Source: Lampropedia cohaerens
GTDB taxonomy: Bacteria > Pseudomonadota > Gammaproteobacteria > Burkholderiales > Burkholderiaceae_C
NCBI RefSeq assembly: GCF_001005215.1
Contig: NZ_LBNQ01000009.1
Span: 62,001-126,000 of the forward strand
Direction: 5' to 3'
DNA length: 64,000 nt
In this document: positions 4,477 to 45,462 of the stretch, one piece after another
Numbering within the stretch: the first letter of the stretch is position 1
Layout of the letters: each line of letters begins with the position of its first letter
Notes under the pieces: model-generated
Told to the model about the DNA's origin: nothing
The model's input: the letters and a program-made list of their open reading frames with translations, nothing else
Databases searched by the model: none
Program-made: the position numbers and the translations under genes

Positions 4477-4631
4477 AATGCCAAGCACCGGCAGGCTGCT
4501 GCGCGCAAGGTGCTTGACGAACATGCGATTATTACATGTTCTGCCTCTTTAACTTCTGACAATGCGTATCGGCTCGTTTGCGGGCCGGTGCCTTGCGCGC
4601 CGCGCCGTGGTGCGGCCGCTCTGAGACCATC

Positions 4632-5615
4632 ATGAAACTGGCTTTGATTGTGTTGGCGACCTTGGTTGCCGGTGTCGGCAGCGTGTGGGTGGCCGCAACG
4701 TTGATTCGCGTCGGCTTCGGCCGCGCTGATTCGCGTATACAAACCCATCATTTGCTCAGCTTTGCCGCGGGCGCGTTGCTGGCGACCGCCTTTGTCCATC
4801 TGCTGCCTGAAGCCATGGAAGGCACGGTCGATAGCCACGTGCTGTTTCCGGTATTGCTGGGCGGTCTGGTGGTGTTCTTCCTGCTGGACAAGGCGGAGCT
4901 GTGGCACCACGGCCACGAGCACGGCCTGCCTGAGTCGGTCGGTCGGCACGGCCATGCTGGAGATGGTCACGCGCACCACGATATTGCCCATGGGCACCAC
5001 CATCATCATCACGGCTCGCAGCGCAGTGGTGCGTGGGCCGTGCTGACGGGTGATAGTGTGCATTGCTTTGGCGACGGGATATTGATCGCCTCGGCCTTCC
5101 TGGTGGACTGGCGCATTGGTATTCTGGCCGCGCTGTCGGTGTTGGCGCATGAGGTGCCGCACCACATCGGTGATCTGATCGTGCTGATGGTGGCCAGCAA
5201 GGGCTCGGCCGCAGATCGGCGCAGGATTGCCCTGGTCAAGGTCTCGATTGCTGGCGCCGTGACCATGCTTGGGGGATTGTCCGGCTACTTGCTGCTGGGG
5301 TTTCTTGACCGTGCCTGGCTGCCGTACTTTCTTGTCGTGGCAGCCAGCAGCTTCATCTATGTCGCCCTGGCGGATCTGATCCCGCAGCTACAGCTGCAGC
5401 TGTCTGCGCGGCAGACCGCGATGCAGGTGGTATGGTTGCTTGCTGGCATGGCGCTGGTCACTGGCGTCAGTACGCTGCTGCACCAGGGCCATGCGCACGG
5501 CCATGCGCACGGCCATGTGCATGGCGAGGATGCCACTGCGCTGGAGAGTTTCCGCCAGCATCCGTTGCACATTGAGAGGCTGCGCCCGGCACCGGCGCCG
5601 GTTGACGCACAGTAG
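4632..5615 (+). CDS. ZIP-family divalent metal transporter
   Basis: A 327-residue inner-membrane importer-type protein of the ZIP (Zrt/Irt-like) family, probably for zinc or another divalent metal. It has about eight hydrophobic segments. The binuclear metal-site helices are visible: TM4 with SVHCFGDG and TM5 with HEVPHHIGD. A cytoplasmic loop around residues 90-125 is very His-rich, including a run of six His, and a second His-rich stretch lies near the C-terminus. The start is ATG 4632; the longer frame from 4578 has no support. It lies just upstream of corA, so two metal transporters adjoin, although an independent leader separates them. Confidence 0.92.
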   Translation: MKLALIVLATLVAGVGSVWVAATLIRVGFGRADSRIQTHHLLSFAAGALLATAFVHLLPEAMEGTVDSHVLFPVLLGGLVVFFLLDKAELWHHGHEHGLPESVGRHGHAGDGHAHHDIAHGHHHHHHGSQRSGAWAVLTGDSVHCFGDGILIASAFLVDWRIGILAALSVLAHEVPHHIGDLIVLMVASKGSAADRRRIALVKVSIAGAVTMLGGLSGYLLLGFLDRAWLPYFLVVAASSFIYVALADLIPQLQLQLSARQTAMQVVWLLAGMALVTGVSTLLHQGHAHGHAHGHVHGEDATALESFRQHPLHIERLRPAPAPVDAQ

Positions 5616-5694
5616 CCAACGGTGCGACGCGGATGGCTGGCGATAACGCCTTGTCGGGCGATAATCCGGTCTGCAGATCGGGCACAATCCGACG

Positions 5695-5735
5695 CGCATG
5701 CACTTGGATGGTGCATGCGGCGCGACACAATCCGA
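5695..5735 (+). promoter_or_regulatory. Candidate corA promoter region with inverted and direct repeats
   Basis: A perfect 9-bp inverted repeat pairs 5695-5703 with 5711-5719 around a 7-nt spacer. The 10-mer CACAATCCGA occurs at 5683-5692 and again at 5726-5735. A weak sigma-70 match is TTGGAT (5704-5709), 16 bp, CACAAT (5726-5731). The inverted repeat overlaps the -35 position and could be an operator. The promoter call is tentative. Confidence 0.35.
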
Positions 5736-5757
5736 ACTTTCTGGAGTGACGAACACC

Positions 5758-5781
5758 ATGGAAACCTACCCGAGTCGGTAG
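5758..5781 (+). CDS. Candidate corA leader peptide (METYPSR)
   Basis: A seven-codon ORF, ATG at 5758 and TAG at 5779-5781, has a GGAG ribosome-binding sequence at 5743-5746, 11 nt before the ATG. Its last codons and stop lie inside a hairpin whose 3' strand (5777-5781) is also the 5' strand of a much longer stem. This placement is what a leader ORF that senses or blocks RNA folding would look like. The Salmonella corA leader is known to carry a short ORF (corL) tied to Rho-dependent termination; the peptide here is different and the parallel is inference. Confidence 0.45.
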   Translation: METYPSR

Positions 5782-5840
5782 CTTTCAGCCCCTTGACACG
5801 TTGACGTCGCATGAAACGTGGCCATGGCGCTGAAAGCACC
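5766..5840 (+). promoter_or_regulatory. Structured corA leader with mutually exclusive stems
   Basis: Stem A pairs CTACC (5766-5770) with GGTAG (5777-5781). Stem B pairs 5777-5791 with 5826-5840 and includes the perfect nine pairs GCTTTCAGC (5781-5789) and GCTGAAAGC (5829-5837), plus GGT/ACC and CC/GG at its ends. A and B share 5777-5781 and cannot form together. Inside B, CACGTT (5797-5802) pairs with AACGTG (5815-5820). Downstream, about 5848-5875 is C/U-rich with little structure before the corA ribosome binding site, as a Rho-loading segment might be. Confidence 0.55.
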
Positions 5841-5887
5841 TTGAAAACCAGTTTCTCCCCAAACCGTCATCTTGCAAGGAGCACGCC

Positions 5888-6871
5888 ATGCTCAACGTAT
5901 TCACTCTGGTCAACGGCCGTCTGGTGCAAAAGGACATCGAGACGCTGCACGATCTGGCCCAGGTTCAGCCGGTCTGGGTGGACATGGAGTCGCCCACCGA
6001 GGAAGAGAAGTTCTGGGTCAAGCAGCACTTCTCGCTGCTGATTCCGGACGATGCGGTGGACGATGACCTGGAGGAGTCCGCGCGCTTCTATGAGGAAGAC
6101 AACGGCGAGATGCATATCCGCAACGACTTTCTCATTGATGATGATGACCCGCGTTACGTGCGCGTGGCCTTCATCATGAATCTCAGCAATGCCAGCCTGC
6201 GCAGCCACAACGTGCTGTTTTCCATCCGCGAGGACGACGTGCCGGTGTTTCGCCTGTTTCGCCTGCGCGCGCGGCGCGTGCCGGGGCTGATTGCCGACTG
6301 CAAGGAAGTGCTGCTCAACCTGCTCGATACCGATGCCGAGTACTGTGCCGATACGCTCGAAGGCATTTACGACGAGCTGAATGCGGCCAGCCAGCGCATT
6401 CTCTCGGGCGAGGTCAACGACTCCGACGCGGCGGCGGTGCTGGGCAGCATTGCGCGTCACGAGGATCTCAACGGCAAGGTGCGCCGCAACGTGATGGAAA
6501 CGCGCCGCGCGGTGAGCTTTCTCATGCGCAGCAAGGTGCTCAGTGCCGAGCAGTTCGAGGATGCGCGCCAGATCCTGCGCGACATCGAGTCGCTGGACAA
6601 CCACACGGCGTTTCTGTTTGACAAGATCAACTTCCTGATGGATGCGACGGTCGGCTTCATCAACCTCAACCAGAGCAAGATCATCAAGCTGTTCTCGGTG
6701 GCCAGCGTGGCGCTGCTGCCGCCGACGCTGGTGGCCAGCGTCTATGGCATGAATTTCCAGTTCATGCCCGAGCTGAACTGGCGCTTGGGCTATCCGTTTG
6801 CGCTGGCGCTGATGGTGGCCAGCGCGGTTGGCCCCATGCTGTATTTCCGCAGCAAGGGCTGGCTGAAGTAG
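5888..6871 (+). CDS. corA: CorA-family magnesium/cobalt channel
   Basis: A 327-residue homopentameric divalent cation channel. It has the long N-terminal cytoplasmic alpha/beta and stalk-helix region, then two C-terminal transmembrane helices. The first ends with the family signature YGMNF, and the loop motif MPELNW follows. The C-terminus is basic (FRSKGWLK). The start ATG 5888 has AAGGAG 8 nt upstream. The 130-nt leader before it is highly structured and holds a short ORF, suggesting control of expression by leader-peptide translation. Mg2+ is the usual substrate; Co2+ or Ni2+ uptake is also known in the family. Confidence 0.95.
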   Translation: MLNVFTLVNGRLVQKDIETLHDLAQVQPVWVDMESPTEEEKFWVKQHFSLLIPDDAVDDDLEESARFYEEDNGEMHIRNDFLIDDDDPRYVRVAFIMNLSNASLRSHNVLFSIREDDVPVFRLFRLRARRVPGLIADCKEVLLNLLDTDAEYCADTLEGIYDELNAASQRILSGEVNDSDAAAVLGSIARHEDLNGKVRRNVMETRRAVSFLMRSKVLSAEQFEDARQILRDIESLDNHTAFLFDKINFLMDATVGFINLNQSKIIKLFSVASVALLPPTLVASVYGMNFQFMPELNWRLGYPFALALMVASAVGPMLYFRSKGWLK

Positions 6872-7142: not shown

Positions 7143-9875
7143 ATGGCCAATTTCCTTACCAAGCTTTTCGGCAGCCGCAACGACCGCCTGCTCAAACAGT
7201 ACCGCAAGACGGTGCAGCGCATCAATGCGATGGAGCCGGAGCTGGAAAAGCTCACCGACGAACAGTTGACTGCCAAGACTGCCGAGTTCAAGCAGCGCGT
7301 TGCCAATGGCGAATCGCTCGACCGCCTGCTGCCCGAGGCGTTCGCGGTCGTGCGCGAAGCCTCCAAGCGCGTGATGAAGATGCGCCACTTCGACGTGCAG
7401 CTCATTGGCGGCATGGCCCTGCACGAGGGCAAGATCGCCGAGATGCGCACGGGCGAGGGCAAGACGCTGACGTCCACGCTGCCGGTTTACCTCAACGCGC
7501 TGACGGGCGAAGGTGTGCACGTGGTCACCGTCAACGACTACCTGGCTCGGCGCGACGCCGAGTGGATGGGGCGGCTCTACAACTTCCTGGGTCTGACTGT
7601 CGGCGTGAATTTCTCCGGCCTGCCCAAGGAAGTCAAGCAGGCCGCCTACCGTGCCGACATCACCTACGGCACCAACAACGAGTATGGTTTCGACTACCTG
7701 CGCGACAACATGGTCTACGAGCGCAGCGACCGGGTGCAGCGCGGGCTGAACTTCGCCATCGTTGACGAGGTGGACTCCATCCTCATCGACGAGGCCCGGA
7801 CGCCACTGATCATCAGCGGCCCTGCCGAGGACAACACGCACATCTACCAGGTGATGAACACCATCGCGCCCAATCTGGTGCGGCAGGAGGGTGAGGCAGA
7901 TCCGCGCACGGGCGAGGGGGTGATCTCGCCGGGCGACTATACCGTCGACGAAAAGAGCCGGCAGGTTTACCTGACGGACCAGGGGTATGAAACGGCCGAG
8001 CGCATCCTGGCCGAGAAAGGCCTGCTGGCCGAGGGCACGTCGCTCTACGATCCCGGCAACATCATGCTGGTGCACCACCTCTACGCGGCGCTGCGGGCCC
8101 ACACGCTGTACAACCGTGACGAGCACTACGTGGTGCAAAACGGTGAGGTCATCATCGTCGACGAGTTCACCGGCCGCCTGATGGCGGGGCGCCGCTGGAG
8201 CGAGGGGCTACACCAGGCGGTCGAGGCCAAGGAAGGCGTGACCATCCAGGCCGAGAACACCACGATGGCCTCGATCACCTTCCAGAACTATTTCCGCATG
8301 TACAAGAAGCTGGCCGGCATGACCGGCACAGCCGACACGGAAGCTTACGAGTTCCAAGAAATCTACGGGCTGGAAACCGTCATCATTCCGCCCAACCGCA
8401 AGAGCCAGCGCGTCGATCAGCTCGACCGCGTCTACAAGACGACCAAGGAAAAGTACGCCGCAGCCATTGCCGACATCAAGGAGTGTCACGAACGTGGTCA
8501 GCCGGTGCTGGTGGGCACGAGCTCGATCGAGAATTCGGAAATCATCTCGCGCCTGCTCGACGAGGCCAAGCTGCCGCATCAGGTGCTCAACGCCAAGCAG
8601 CACGAGCGCGAGGCGGACATCATTGCGCAGGCGGGCCGCGAAGGCATGATCACCATTGCCACCAACATGGCAGGGCGCGGCACTGACATCGTGCTGGGCG
8701 GCAACATCGAGAAGGAAGTCGCCGCCATCGAGGCCGACGAGAGCCTGTCCGAAGCCGAGCGCCAGGCCCGCATTGAAGCCTTGCGCGAGCAATGGAAGAT
8801 TGACAACGCCCGCATCAAGGAGCTGGGCGGTCTGCGTATCATCGCCACCGAGCGCCATGAGTCGCGCCGCATCGACAACCAGTTGCGTGGCCGCGCAGGT
8901 CGCCAGGGCGATCCCGGTTCGTCGCGCTTTTACCTTAGCCTGGACGATCCGCTGATGCGCATTTTCGCGGGCGACCGCGTGCGTGCCATCATGGAGCGGC
9001 TCAAGATGCCCGAGGGCGAGGCCATTGAGGCTGGCATGGTCACGCGCAGCATCGAGTCGGCGCAGCGCAAGGTCGAGGCGCGCAACTTCGACATTCGCAA
9101 GCAGCTGCTCGACTATGACGACGTGGCCAACGAGCAGCGCAAGGTTATCTACGCGCAACGCAATGAAATCCTCGATGCCGAGGATGTGAGCGACACCATT
9201 GCAGCGATGCGTGAGTCGACCTTCACGGATCTCGTGCACCGTTATGTTCCGCCTGAATCCATGGAAGAGCAGTGGGATATCGCTGCACTTGATGCGGAGC
9301 TGGAAAAAGAGTGGGATCTGCCGCTGCAACTGGGCAAGATCGTCGAGGATTCCGACGCCATCACCGCCGAGGATATTCTCGAGCGGGTGCTCGCTGCTGC
9401 CAATGCCGCCTATGACACCAAGGTGCGCCTGGCTGGCCGGGCACAGTTCGGTCATTTCGAGCGCGTCGTGCTGCTGCAGACCTTCGACTCTGCATGGCGG
9501 GATCACCTCAGTGCGCTCGATTACCTGCGCCAGGGCATCCACCTGCGCGGATTTGCGCAGAAGCAGCCCAAGCAGGAATACAAGCGCGAGGCGTTCGAGC
9601 TGTTTCGCCTGATGATCAACAACGCCAGCGCCGACGTTACCCGTATCATCATGCGCGTGAAGATCCAGGATCCGGCGCAGGTTCAGCAGGCCGCCGAGCA
9701 GATCGAGAGTTCGGCCGAGGCGGTGGCGCAACGCGCCATCGATCAGAGTGTTGCCGCAAGCGCACAGGAGGCGCAGGCAAGCGCTGCTGCGCAGGTGCCG
9801 CGCGTGGGCCGCAACGACCCTTGCCCGTGCGGCAGTGGCAAGAAATACAAGCATTGCCACGGTCAGCTGCAGTAG
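7143..9875 (+). CDS. secA: Preprotein translocase ATPase SecA
   Basis: The 910-residue motor that pushes unfolded preproteins through SecYEG. The full-length architecture is present. The nucleotide-binding domain has MRTGEGKT near residue 105 and DEVDS near residue 210. The helicase motif [12 protein letters not shown] lies near residue 510. The helical scaffold/wing and a C-terminal SEC-C zinc motif [13 protein letters not shown], used for SecB and lipid contact, complete it. There is no recognisable Shine-Dalgarno sequence; a GC-rich hairpin and six T sit right before the ATG. It converges on cysK with a shared terminator. Confidence 0.99.
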
Positions 9876-45172: not shown

Positions 45173-45314
45173 TACAATAGCGCCATTGTCGAACGGTATT
45201 TACCCTGTTGTCTTGCAAGACAATTTGTTTTACCGGTATCTGACAACCGCTTGTCTCCTCCACCTTCTCAAATGGTGGATTCGCCCCGTAATCTCACGAT
45301 TGCGGGGCTTTTTT
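45173..45314 (+). ncRNA. Candidate small RNA or ilvA leader ending in a strong terminator
   Basis: A -10-like TACAAT (45173-45178) is followed by about 135 nt containing a perfect 16-bp palindrome TTGTCTTGCAAGACAA (45208-45223) and a 6-bp hairpin TCCACC/GGTGGA (45259-45264 with 45274-45279) next to CTCCTCC-like sequence. The terminator pairs GCCCCGTAAT (45283-45292) with ATTGCGGGGC (45299-45308), then six T. No convincing ORF is present. It may be a free sRNA or an attenuated leader of ilvA 149 bp downstream. The -35 is poor. Confidence 0.5.
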
Positions 45315-45462
45315 CTGGGCGGTCCATTCCGGCGAGCTCCGGACGTGTTTGGCCAGTGCGCATCGCCGGATGCGACGATCAGGCCTATCATCGGCCACTT
45401 TGCTCCATCTGCGTGCGCATGCATCGCTTGCCATGCACATTGTCTGCGATGCCGACCCGACC

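Follow-up and report, generated by a model that had tools for sequence, protein, structure and literature searches.

The window, that is, the whole 64,000-nt stretch of Lampropedia cohaerens DNA analysed here, contains a ZIP-family transporter gene, corA and secA, and the leader studied in this work lies upstream of corA (Table 1). CorA is a widespread Mg2+ channel, and the window CorA matched the profiles PF01544 (170.4 bits) and TIGR00383 (215.5 bits, cut-off 200.75); among the loci returned, its nearest named relative was that of Lampropedia hyalina DSM 16112 (80% identity), the leader of which (L002) appears identical to that of G002, a genome listed under the window's genus. The window leader had no Rfam match at the gathering score, and the stretch 5650-5900 none up to E 1. 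Elsewhere in the window, Rfam located a match to RF02278 (Betaproteobacteria toxic small RNA) at 45252-45315 (57.6 bits). According to the original prediction, a GGAG and an ATG open a seven-codon upstream ORF (uORF) encoding METYPSR, the stop codon of which (TAG, 5779-5781) lies inside a GGTAG, and all these letters were verified. The uORF would overlap three helices: P1, formed by codons 2-5 and the strand around the uORF stop; P2, formed by the same stop-codon strand, extended and paired about 40 nt further on; and P3, in which the inner part of the stop-codon strand would pair with the corA Shine-Dalgarno. P2 would exclude both P1 and P3, and the latter two would be compatible.

Table 1. 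Genes, candidate promoter elements and leader features at the corA locus of the window
Feature	Positions	Strand	Remarks
ZIP-family transporter gene	4578-5615		First in order, then corA, then secA
GATAAT, candidate distal -10 box	5660-5665	+	By eye; 92 nt from uORF
CACAAT, candidate proximal degenerate -10 box	5726-5731	+	Aligned by eye with CATAAT/GATAAT of relatives
GGAG, uORF Shine-Dalgarno	5743-5746	+	
uORF METYPSR (ATG GAA ACC TAC CCG AGT CGG TAG)	5758-5781	+	Stop in P1 3'/P2 5' arm
P1 5' arm, GAAA (5761-5764) and CTACC (5766-5770)	5761-5770	+	Codons 2-5; predicted in the fold with the P2 3' arm masked
P1 3' arm, GGTAG-C-TTTC	5777-5786	+	Common to P2 5' arm
P2 5' arm, GGT, bulged A, GCTTTCAGC, inner pairs	5777-5791	+	
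P2 3' arm, ...GCTGAAAGC ACC	5826-5840	+	
P3 5' arm, GCCCCTTG	5788-5795	+	Putative anti-Shine-Dalgarno, inner P2 5' arm
G-poor tail, 11 C, 10 T, 9 A, 4 G	5841-5874	+	C-rich in relatives
P3 3' arm, CAAGGAGC	5875-5882	+	Holds corA Shine-Dalgarno GGAG (5878-5881)
corA (327 aa)	5888-6871	+	Profile matches
secA	7143-9875		3' of corA

The leader was compared with those of the 80 best CorA relatives kept from genome_contigs, with those at 30 loci drawn from a set of 60 related genomes that included the window's own, and with leaders found by covariance models. After removal of 12 leaders sharing their last 140 nt with another, there were 288, of which 109 were gathered by CorA similarity alone (98 carrying the element), 159 were model hits (158) and 20 were chosen as hitless (2). 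Two loci, L001 (a second copy of the window locus) and L334, were dropped before the counts, as were ten false anchors recognised by eye (L037, L038, L057, L079, L098, L320-L323 and L327), although by eye L079 and L098 resemble divergent true elements. The fairest prevalence among near relatives is 98/109; 258/288 is not a prevalence. The ORF was open in all 98 elements of the CorA-similarity set and in 256 of the 258 elements of the full set, which bears out its predicted conservation. L317, with the sole frameshift seen within a uORF, and L329, which has lost the start codon and kept the hairpin (both by eye), count as elements and not as open ORFs. In short, the leader observation was correct and goes beyond chance.

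The open uORFs begin with TTG (143), ATG (75), GTG (37) or CTG (1), and the distance from the start to slot 8, the slot common to P1 and P2, is seven codons in 242 of them, eight in 11, six in two and nine in one. The element anchor did not require a start codon, but where candidates competed, those with GA at codon 2, with AGT/TCT at codon 6 or with a Shine-Dalgarno were preferred, and the following frequencies have to be read with this preference in mind. The peptides follow the pattern M-[E/D]-x-x-P-S-R/W-stop and related forms, with an acidic residue 2 in 252/256 (95/98 in the CorA-similarity set), a proline within codons 3-7 in 254 and both in 250. Most have a single acidic residue among the first seven (219/256; two in 34, none in three), and at residue 7 the seven-codon ORFs of type I (see below) carry R (117), W (40), C (12), G (3), Q (1) or L (1). 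In an early pattern-matched set, 99 of 110 leaders fitted the uORF pattern, counts that are conditional on the start codon and the CC at codon 5 that this pattern required. The 54 distinct 29-nt segments showed GAA (48), GAC (3), GAT, TTA and AAA (1 each) at codon 2, and AGT (41), TCT (11), CCT and CGA (1 each) at codon 6.

The original prediction could not stand with a transcription start downstream of 5758, and the likely start is upstream of the ORF, since a NATAAT box precedes the uORF in 240 of 256 leaders (75 nt searched). In the leaders of relatives its end lies a median of 29 nt (range 24-64) from the uORF start. The box reads CATAAT in 136, GATAAT in 95 and AATAAT in 9 of the 256 leaders, and a TG stands one base 5' of it in 202/240, as in an extended -10 promoter. 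This promoter is better conserved in the relatives than in the window, which lacks a clean NATAAT at the spacing of its relatives and has both its candidate boxes 5' of the uORF. A scan of 5550-5950 found neither a consensus promoter nor a terminator-like site, and the window leader has no terminator hairpin with a U-run of the kind expected of a Rho-independent attenuator. By eye, an inverted repeat, CGCATGCAC/GTGCATGCG, was noticed at 5695-5719, in the interval that separates the distal from the proximal candidate box.

The distribution of the element was studied with two covariance models, R1 (from 56 sequences) and R2 (from 6 type II leaders). R1 matched 138 of 299 family genomes (E 0.01), and the leaders that it missed revealed a second type, e.g. 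TTG-GAC-AGC-GAC-CAC-CCT-CGG-TGA, encoding MDSDHPR*; R2 matched 83 of the 299. We set aside the weakest matches, namely 4 genomes with R1 scores under 24 bits and 9 with R2 scores under 28 bits; by our reading of the hit tables, 134 + 74 = 208 of the 299 family genomes then retained a hit, none of them with both models, and a close CorA (E 1e-60) was found in 271. On inspection, three leaders first classed as type II (L042, L054 and L313) proved to belong to type I and were counted there. We fetched 170 of the 208 hits (L149-L318), and a loose pattern located a corA start at most 500 nt downstream in 169; in the remaining one, L200, corA was present by eye. The median distance from the uORF start to corA was about 117 nt in type I and 155 nt in type II. 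In the window genome itself, searches at E up to 1 yielded no match apart from the copy at corA, which also gave an antisense shadow.

In a sample of the order (399 genomes), R1 gave 10 strong hits (at least 29.9 bits), all in the own family and all beside corA, and R2 at E 0.001 added one genome of the same family. Strong hits thus occurred in 11 of 12 own-family genomes and in none of 387 genomes of other families. The original prediction proposed a leader that arose separately or diverged far from enteric corL, and this restriction to the family fits a separate origin. Thirteen weaker R1 matches (24.9 bits at most; 12 in other families, one in the own) had no CorA relative (tblastn E 1e-3) within about 1.5 kb on either side and were treated as chance. 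Among the 20 hitless family genomes with corA that were inspected, all taken from those with a listed corA position, L331 had an intact element and L329 was the leader without start codon; of the others, some kept remnants, some had no trace that could be recognised and some carried a -10 box immediately 5' of corA. By eye, L322, L328, L330 and L334 have a GATAAT-like box close before the corA start and no leader; the whole switch seems to have been lost there, and the mRNA may be nearly leaderless. Also by eye, the leader of L083, from the same genus, is reduced to the P2 3' arm and, like L317 and L329, reads as a decaying copy. The corA leaders of L324, L325 and L326, again by eye, resemble one another and neither known type, with many GACCG/CGGTG repeats; these genomes gave no hit with either model, and their leader is possibly a third type.

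The large stem of the original prediction (5777-5791 with 5826-5840) was found as P2, with pairs 5777-5779/5838-5840 and 5781-5789/5829-5837 plus inner pairs. The predicted exclusion between this stem and the small hairpin also holds, both using 5777-5781. The segment 5764-5842 folds at -30.3 kcal/mol (z -3.71), a value reached by 1 of 200 shuffles; taken as a whole (5743-5890), the leader stands out less (z -1.64; 11/200). P2 covariation in relatives, which was to be expected of a real helix, is clear, with compensatory change across the two sequence types. On the A1 alignment (56 rows), 88.6% of the P2 cells pair and 38 cells show two-sided changes, neither figure being reached by any of 500 shuffles, and the same holds for the covariation score of 0.239. 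Two-sided changes affected 8 pairs (equalled by 36/500 shuffles), and there were 23 further pair types (equalled by 9/500). In slid registers 37-53% of the cells pair and the scores are 0.05-0.12, although a slide of -1 gives as many pair types (24) as the true register.

Comparison of the two types suggests that their P2 can be read as one helix rewritten. Pair 24 changes from GC (188/188 in type I) to AT (48/70 in type II), pair 26 from TA (184/188) to CG (70/70), pair 27 from TA (184/188) to GC (70/70) and pair 30 from AT (143/188) to CG (64/70), between-type counts that, like the P2 permutation z-scores, are biased toward pairing, the 3' arm having been positioned where it paired best. In a control of this placement, the mean score was 25.2 with the native 5' arm, 13.4 with shuffled arms and 12.8 with that of the other type, and the native arm beat its own three shuffles in 93% of the 258 elements. 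Several type II tails among L149-L165 repeat, by eye, GGACGG and CCGTCC 3' of P2; these repeats may form an extra hairpin and also match the P2 5' arm.

The small hairpin, originally placed at 5766-5781, is present as CTACC/GGTAG; that description was too short, as P1 continues past a C.C mismatch and takes in GAAA/TTTC (5761-5764 with 5783-5786) when the downstream sequence is given. With CTACC/GGTAG (5766-5770/5777-5781), the segment 5765-5783 folds at -5.3 kcal/mol, matched by 6 of 200 shuffles, and 5743-5783, i.e. the hairpin plus its upstream part, is unremarkable (z -0.12; 84/200). Covariation of P1 was supported in type I and weak in type II. On A1, three pairs and 9 cells have two-sided changes, against three and 10 after a one-column slide, and the true register has a covariation score of 0.105, whereas slid ones do not exceed 0.067, which we regard as moderate evidence for the helix. 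When the 3' half types were swapped between relatives, folding was equal or better in 16 of 2000 permutations. Among representatives below 80% identity, the permutation z was -7.6 in type I and -1.7 in type II (48/1000 as good), and it ranged from -1.05 to -2.35 across the type II sets.

Pair 6-27 of P1 is AT in 156/174 type I and CG in 63/68 type II elements, and nucleotide 27, which belongs to both P1 and P2, changed along with both alternative partners, a joint change that may represent a single ancient event. Codon 2 thereby goes from GAA to GAC along with its shared-strand partner, and residue 2 stays acidic. Within type I, 19 of 186 codons 2 are GAC or GAT, with loss of the A-U pair, and only three are GAG, which would keep a wobble pair; GAG:GAA is 17:5 in the window corA and 61:24 in the window secA. 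Both RNA and peptide seem, from these patterns, to constrain codon 2.

A pairing absent from the original prediction and new here is P3, in which the inner P2 5' arm would take up the corA Shine-Dalgarno. Permutation tests of element nucleotides 30-43 against the last 20 nt before corA gave native energies of -11.4 versus -9.65 kcal/mol permuted in type I (n=175; z -10.5) and -15.0 versus -12.4 kcal/mol in type II (n=65; z -8.6), full-set values that overstate the effect, as close relatives remain among the 258 elements. In the same full set, control pairings gave z from -1.0 to +2.1, with one at +4.6, and windows overlapping the corA Shine-Dalgarno -4.8 and -3.4. With representatives below 80% identity, z was -7.1 in type I (n=68) and -5.3 in type II (n=35), with 0/1000 permutations as good and controls between -0.2 and +2.1; at a laxer cut of 88%, one control reached +3.9. 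Below 72% identity, P3 was not significant in type I (n=16; z -1.2; 113/1000 as good), but the signal persisted in type II (n=17; z -3.8; 0/1000). The helix reaches up to 12 uninterrupted pairs (L162, L154). Taking only leaders with both CTCC and GGAG, the 83 distinct ones of type I gained over shuffles at positions +2 and -1 around this core, and the 53 distinct ones of type II at +1, +2, +4 and +5. The P2 3' arm, paired with the Shine-Dalgarno window, gave z of +2.1 (type I) and -0.5 (type II).

The position of the uORF stop provides a different kind of evidence. In 187 uORFs the stop falls exactly in the slot common to P1 and P2 (TAG in 124, TGA in 63), and in the other 69 of the 256 slot 8 is a sense codon and the stop comes 3-12 codons further on. 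All 69 of these extended ORFs have an in-frame stop before the P2 3' arm, against 19/69 and 18/69 in the other two frames, and a second in-frame stop before that arm exists in only 24 of the 187 uORFs that end in the slot. With the earlier of two placements of the P2 3' arm, the stop still precedes it in 68/68 extended ORFs checked, the placement itself being suspect for five arms less than 25 nt from corA, including one that belongs to an extended ORF, and low-scoring in six elements. The rule observed in the 69 sense-slot uORFs is strong evidence, as far as comparison of leaders can tell, that uORF translation matters and must end 5' of the P2 3' arm.

These results bear on two simple accounts of the leader. 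It could be an RNA that binds a ligand or a protein and in which the ORF is a passenger, as the strong conservation of GCTTTC/GAAAGC within type I would suggest; nevertheless, type II swaps these bases on both strands, the uORF keeps its frame and stop, and Rfam returned nothing for the window leader, so that we consider this very improbable. Still less credit can be given to a chance ORF on an unregulated stability hairpin: some relatives have indeed lost the leader and keep corA, but the ORF is conserved, its stop obeys a rule and P3 covaries. Taken together, the comparison supports the ORF, including its frame and the rule for its stop, as well as the helices P2 and P3; the support for P1 is weaker.

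We believe that the leader is a ribosome-operated RNA switch in which P1 plus P3 would be the off state and P2 the on state for corA, a reading to which we assign a probability of roughly 0.58; reading of the uORF would thus probably set the amount of CorA transporter. P1 and P3 together would hide the ribosome site and keep corA low, and P2, by occupying the anti-Shine-Dalgarno strand, would make it high. A ribosome that starts the uORF and aborts early would keep P1 open, so that P2 forms, and one that reaches the stop codon would block P2. The most speculative steps are that the early acidic residue and the proline would cause the abort at low Mg2+, as for MgtL and MgtQ, and that Rho would possibly act on the C-rich stretch when P2 is open.

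Folding states were computed on leaders ending with the corA ATG, and the means are for 234 leaders with a recognised Shine-Dalgarno motif (167 type I, 67 type II). In the free fold of the window, the P2 core had a probability of 0.99, P3 of 0.004, and the Shine-Dalgarno was unpaired at 0.79. Once the P2 3' arm was masked, P1 and P3 formed unguided (P3, 0.75; Shine-Dalgarno unpaired, 0.25), and with an early ribosome P2 formed, yet the Shine-Dalgarno was paired elsewhere (unpaired, 0.25). The type I mean was near balance (P2 core 0.39, P3 0.43), and masking of the uORF start, representing an initiating ribosome, moved it to 0.60 and 0.30; in type II, the same masking changed P2 from 0.22 to 0.52 and P3 from 0.52 to 0.34. 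The unpaired probability of the Shine-Dalgarno, in the free, P2-masked, early-ribosome and ribosome-at-stop states, was 0.14, 0.12, 0.19 and 0.31 in type I (n=167), and 0.12, 0.14, 0.17 and 0.33 in type II (n=67), and in only 119/167 and 43/67 leaders did masking of P2 leave the site less accessible than an early ribosome did. Static folding gave no clean support to the off/on direction proposed above. The direction and the signal of the switch are what we infer, because the accessibility of the Shine-Dalgarno shifts little and peaks with the ribosome at the stop.

That peak would fit a different arrangement, in which Pro-Ser-Arg or Pro-Arg before the stop stalls the ribosome at the end of the ORF and the parked ribosome blocks P1, P2 and P3 and frees the corA site. 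The P-S-R/W/C motif recurs 5' of the stop, and static folding opens the Shine-Dalgarno most with a ribosome there; we nonetheless judge such stalling improbable, as the displaced stops of the extended ORFs and the variable residue 7 speak against it, and the CC of codon 5 and the G of codon 7 may be held by RNA pairing.

Attenuation by Rho was weighed in the same way. Here the completed uORF would keep P2 open and expose a C-rich Rho site that P2 otherwise masks, pairing of the Shine-Dalgarno being secondary. The C/U-rich stretch originally described after the large stem is G-poor and only mildly C/U-rich in the window (11/34 C), but clearly C-rich in relatives, where C exceeds G in the tail in 185/185 type I and 67/67 type II leaders (C 0.47; G 0.16 and 0.26). 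In type I, to which the comparison applies, since only one type II leader was comparable, the stretch upstream of the ORF has C 0.34 and G 0.30, with C above G in 68/100. This excess is compatible with Rho and no proof of it, for a C-rich tail may just keep the ribosome site unpaired; besides, little room is left from P2 to the Shine-Dalgarno, the type I tail having a median length of 35 nt, and Rho leaves the covariation of P3 unexplained. As excerpted in PMC11552253, corA of E. coli is Rho-regulated, inversely to the translation of corL. On balance, Rho attenuation as the main mechanism appears unlikely here, if somewhat better founded than stalling, and the pairing of P3 with the corA ribosome-binding site would make translational control at least as likely as it.

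Returning to the ribosome-operated switch, its most specific version would be a separately evolved, Mg2+-sensing and translation-aborting corA switch, convergent with MgtL and MgtQ and with codon 2 double-coded for acidity and for both folds. The swap of GAA and GAC accompanies compensating changes in both competing helices, as double coding would require; we regard this version as conceivable and somewhat short of probable. If the switch is true, corA would be under ribosome-based control well beyond the enterics, in a distant clade, and the leader would offer a minimal system (about 120 nt, seven codons and three helices) in which destabilisation by a nascent peptide becomes an RNA decision; more than 200 natural variants, together with the forms that have lost the stop or the whole leader, would serve as ready-made controls. 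In the open-licence PMC literature, no title or beginning of an abstract among the matches listed named such an element.

In trpL-type leaders, the position of the ribosome on a short ORF selects between mutually exclusive helices. The same would apply here, as it does for trpL and TnaC in the discussion excerpted from PMC8092293. Differing from these, the window leader was found to have neither an intrinsic terminator nor a run of codons for a single amino acid. A closer parallel is mgtQ, which precedes mgtB, the gene of a P-type ATPase. In the excerpt of PMC8092293, mgtQ of the Salmonella mgtC-mgtB region is an 8-residue ORF with an acidic residue 2 and overlapping alternative stems, one of which pairs the ribosome site of the Mg2+ transporter gene while the competing one frees it, a layout likely shared by our leader; its acidic codons 2 and 5 are described there as lowering mgtQ translation and raising that of mgtB through the alternative stems. 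By sequence comparison, the window leader likewise has a short ORF overlapping a stem that is exclusive with a second one, and the permutation tests indicate a pairing that would sequester the ribosome site, not significant in the strictest type I set. The topology differs: mgtQ has 1:2 and 3:4 versus 2:3, and here we would have 1:2 and inner-2:4 versus 2:3, so that the ribosome site is paired by region 3 in mgtQ and by inner region 2 in our leader; moreover, mgtQ is intergenic and controls mgtB (PMC8092293, in the part available), and the present element is a 5' leader of corA. Since the two leaders agree in the type of gene controlled, in where the acidic residue lies and in their putative use of an anti-Shine-Dalgarno, mgtQ may serve as the nearest working model.

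The corL/corA leader of E. coli and Salmonella precedes the same gene, has its uORF within alternative folds and carries pyrimidine-rich rut regions, but corL is described as part of a three-way junction, accompanied by several other stems, and as acting through Rho; expression of corA in E. coli had been held to be constitutive (excerpts of PMC11552253). MgtL, the leader peptide of mgtA, is short, acidic and proline-containing, and the available part of PMC11282234 reports that its EPDP motif makes ribosomes drop off at low Mg2+ and that it acts through Rho. A comparable MEPDPSW is encoded by three type I leaders here, although most of our peptides, with their single acidic residue, have fewer than the MgtL motif or mgtQ. 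The likeness to mgtQ and corL is one of published descriptions, and it is by description that the corA leader is set apart from mgtQ, mgtL and corL, as a putative Mg2+-transporter leader under uORF control that has a topology of its own and occurs throughout the family.
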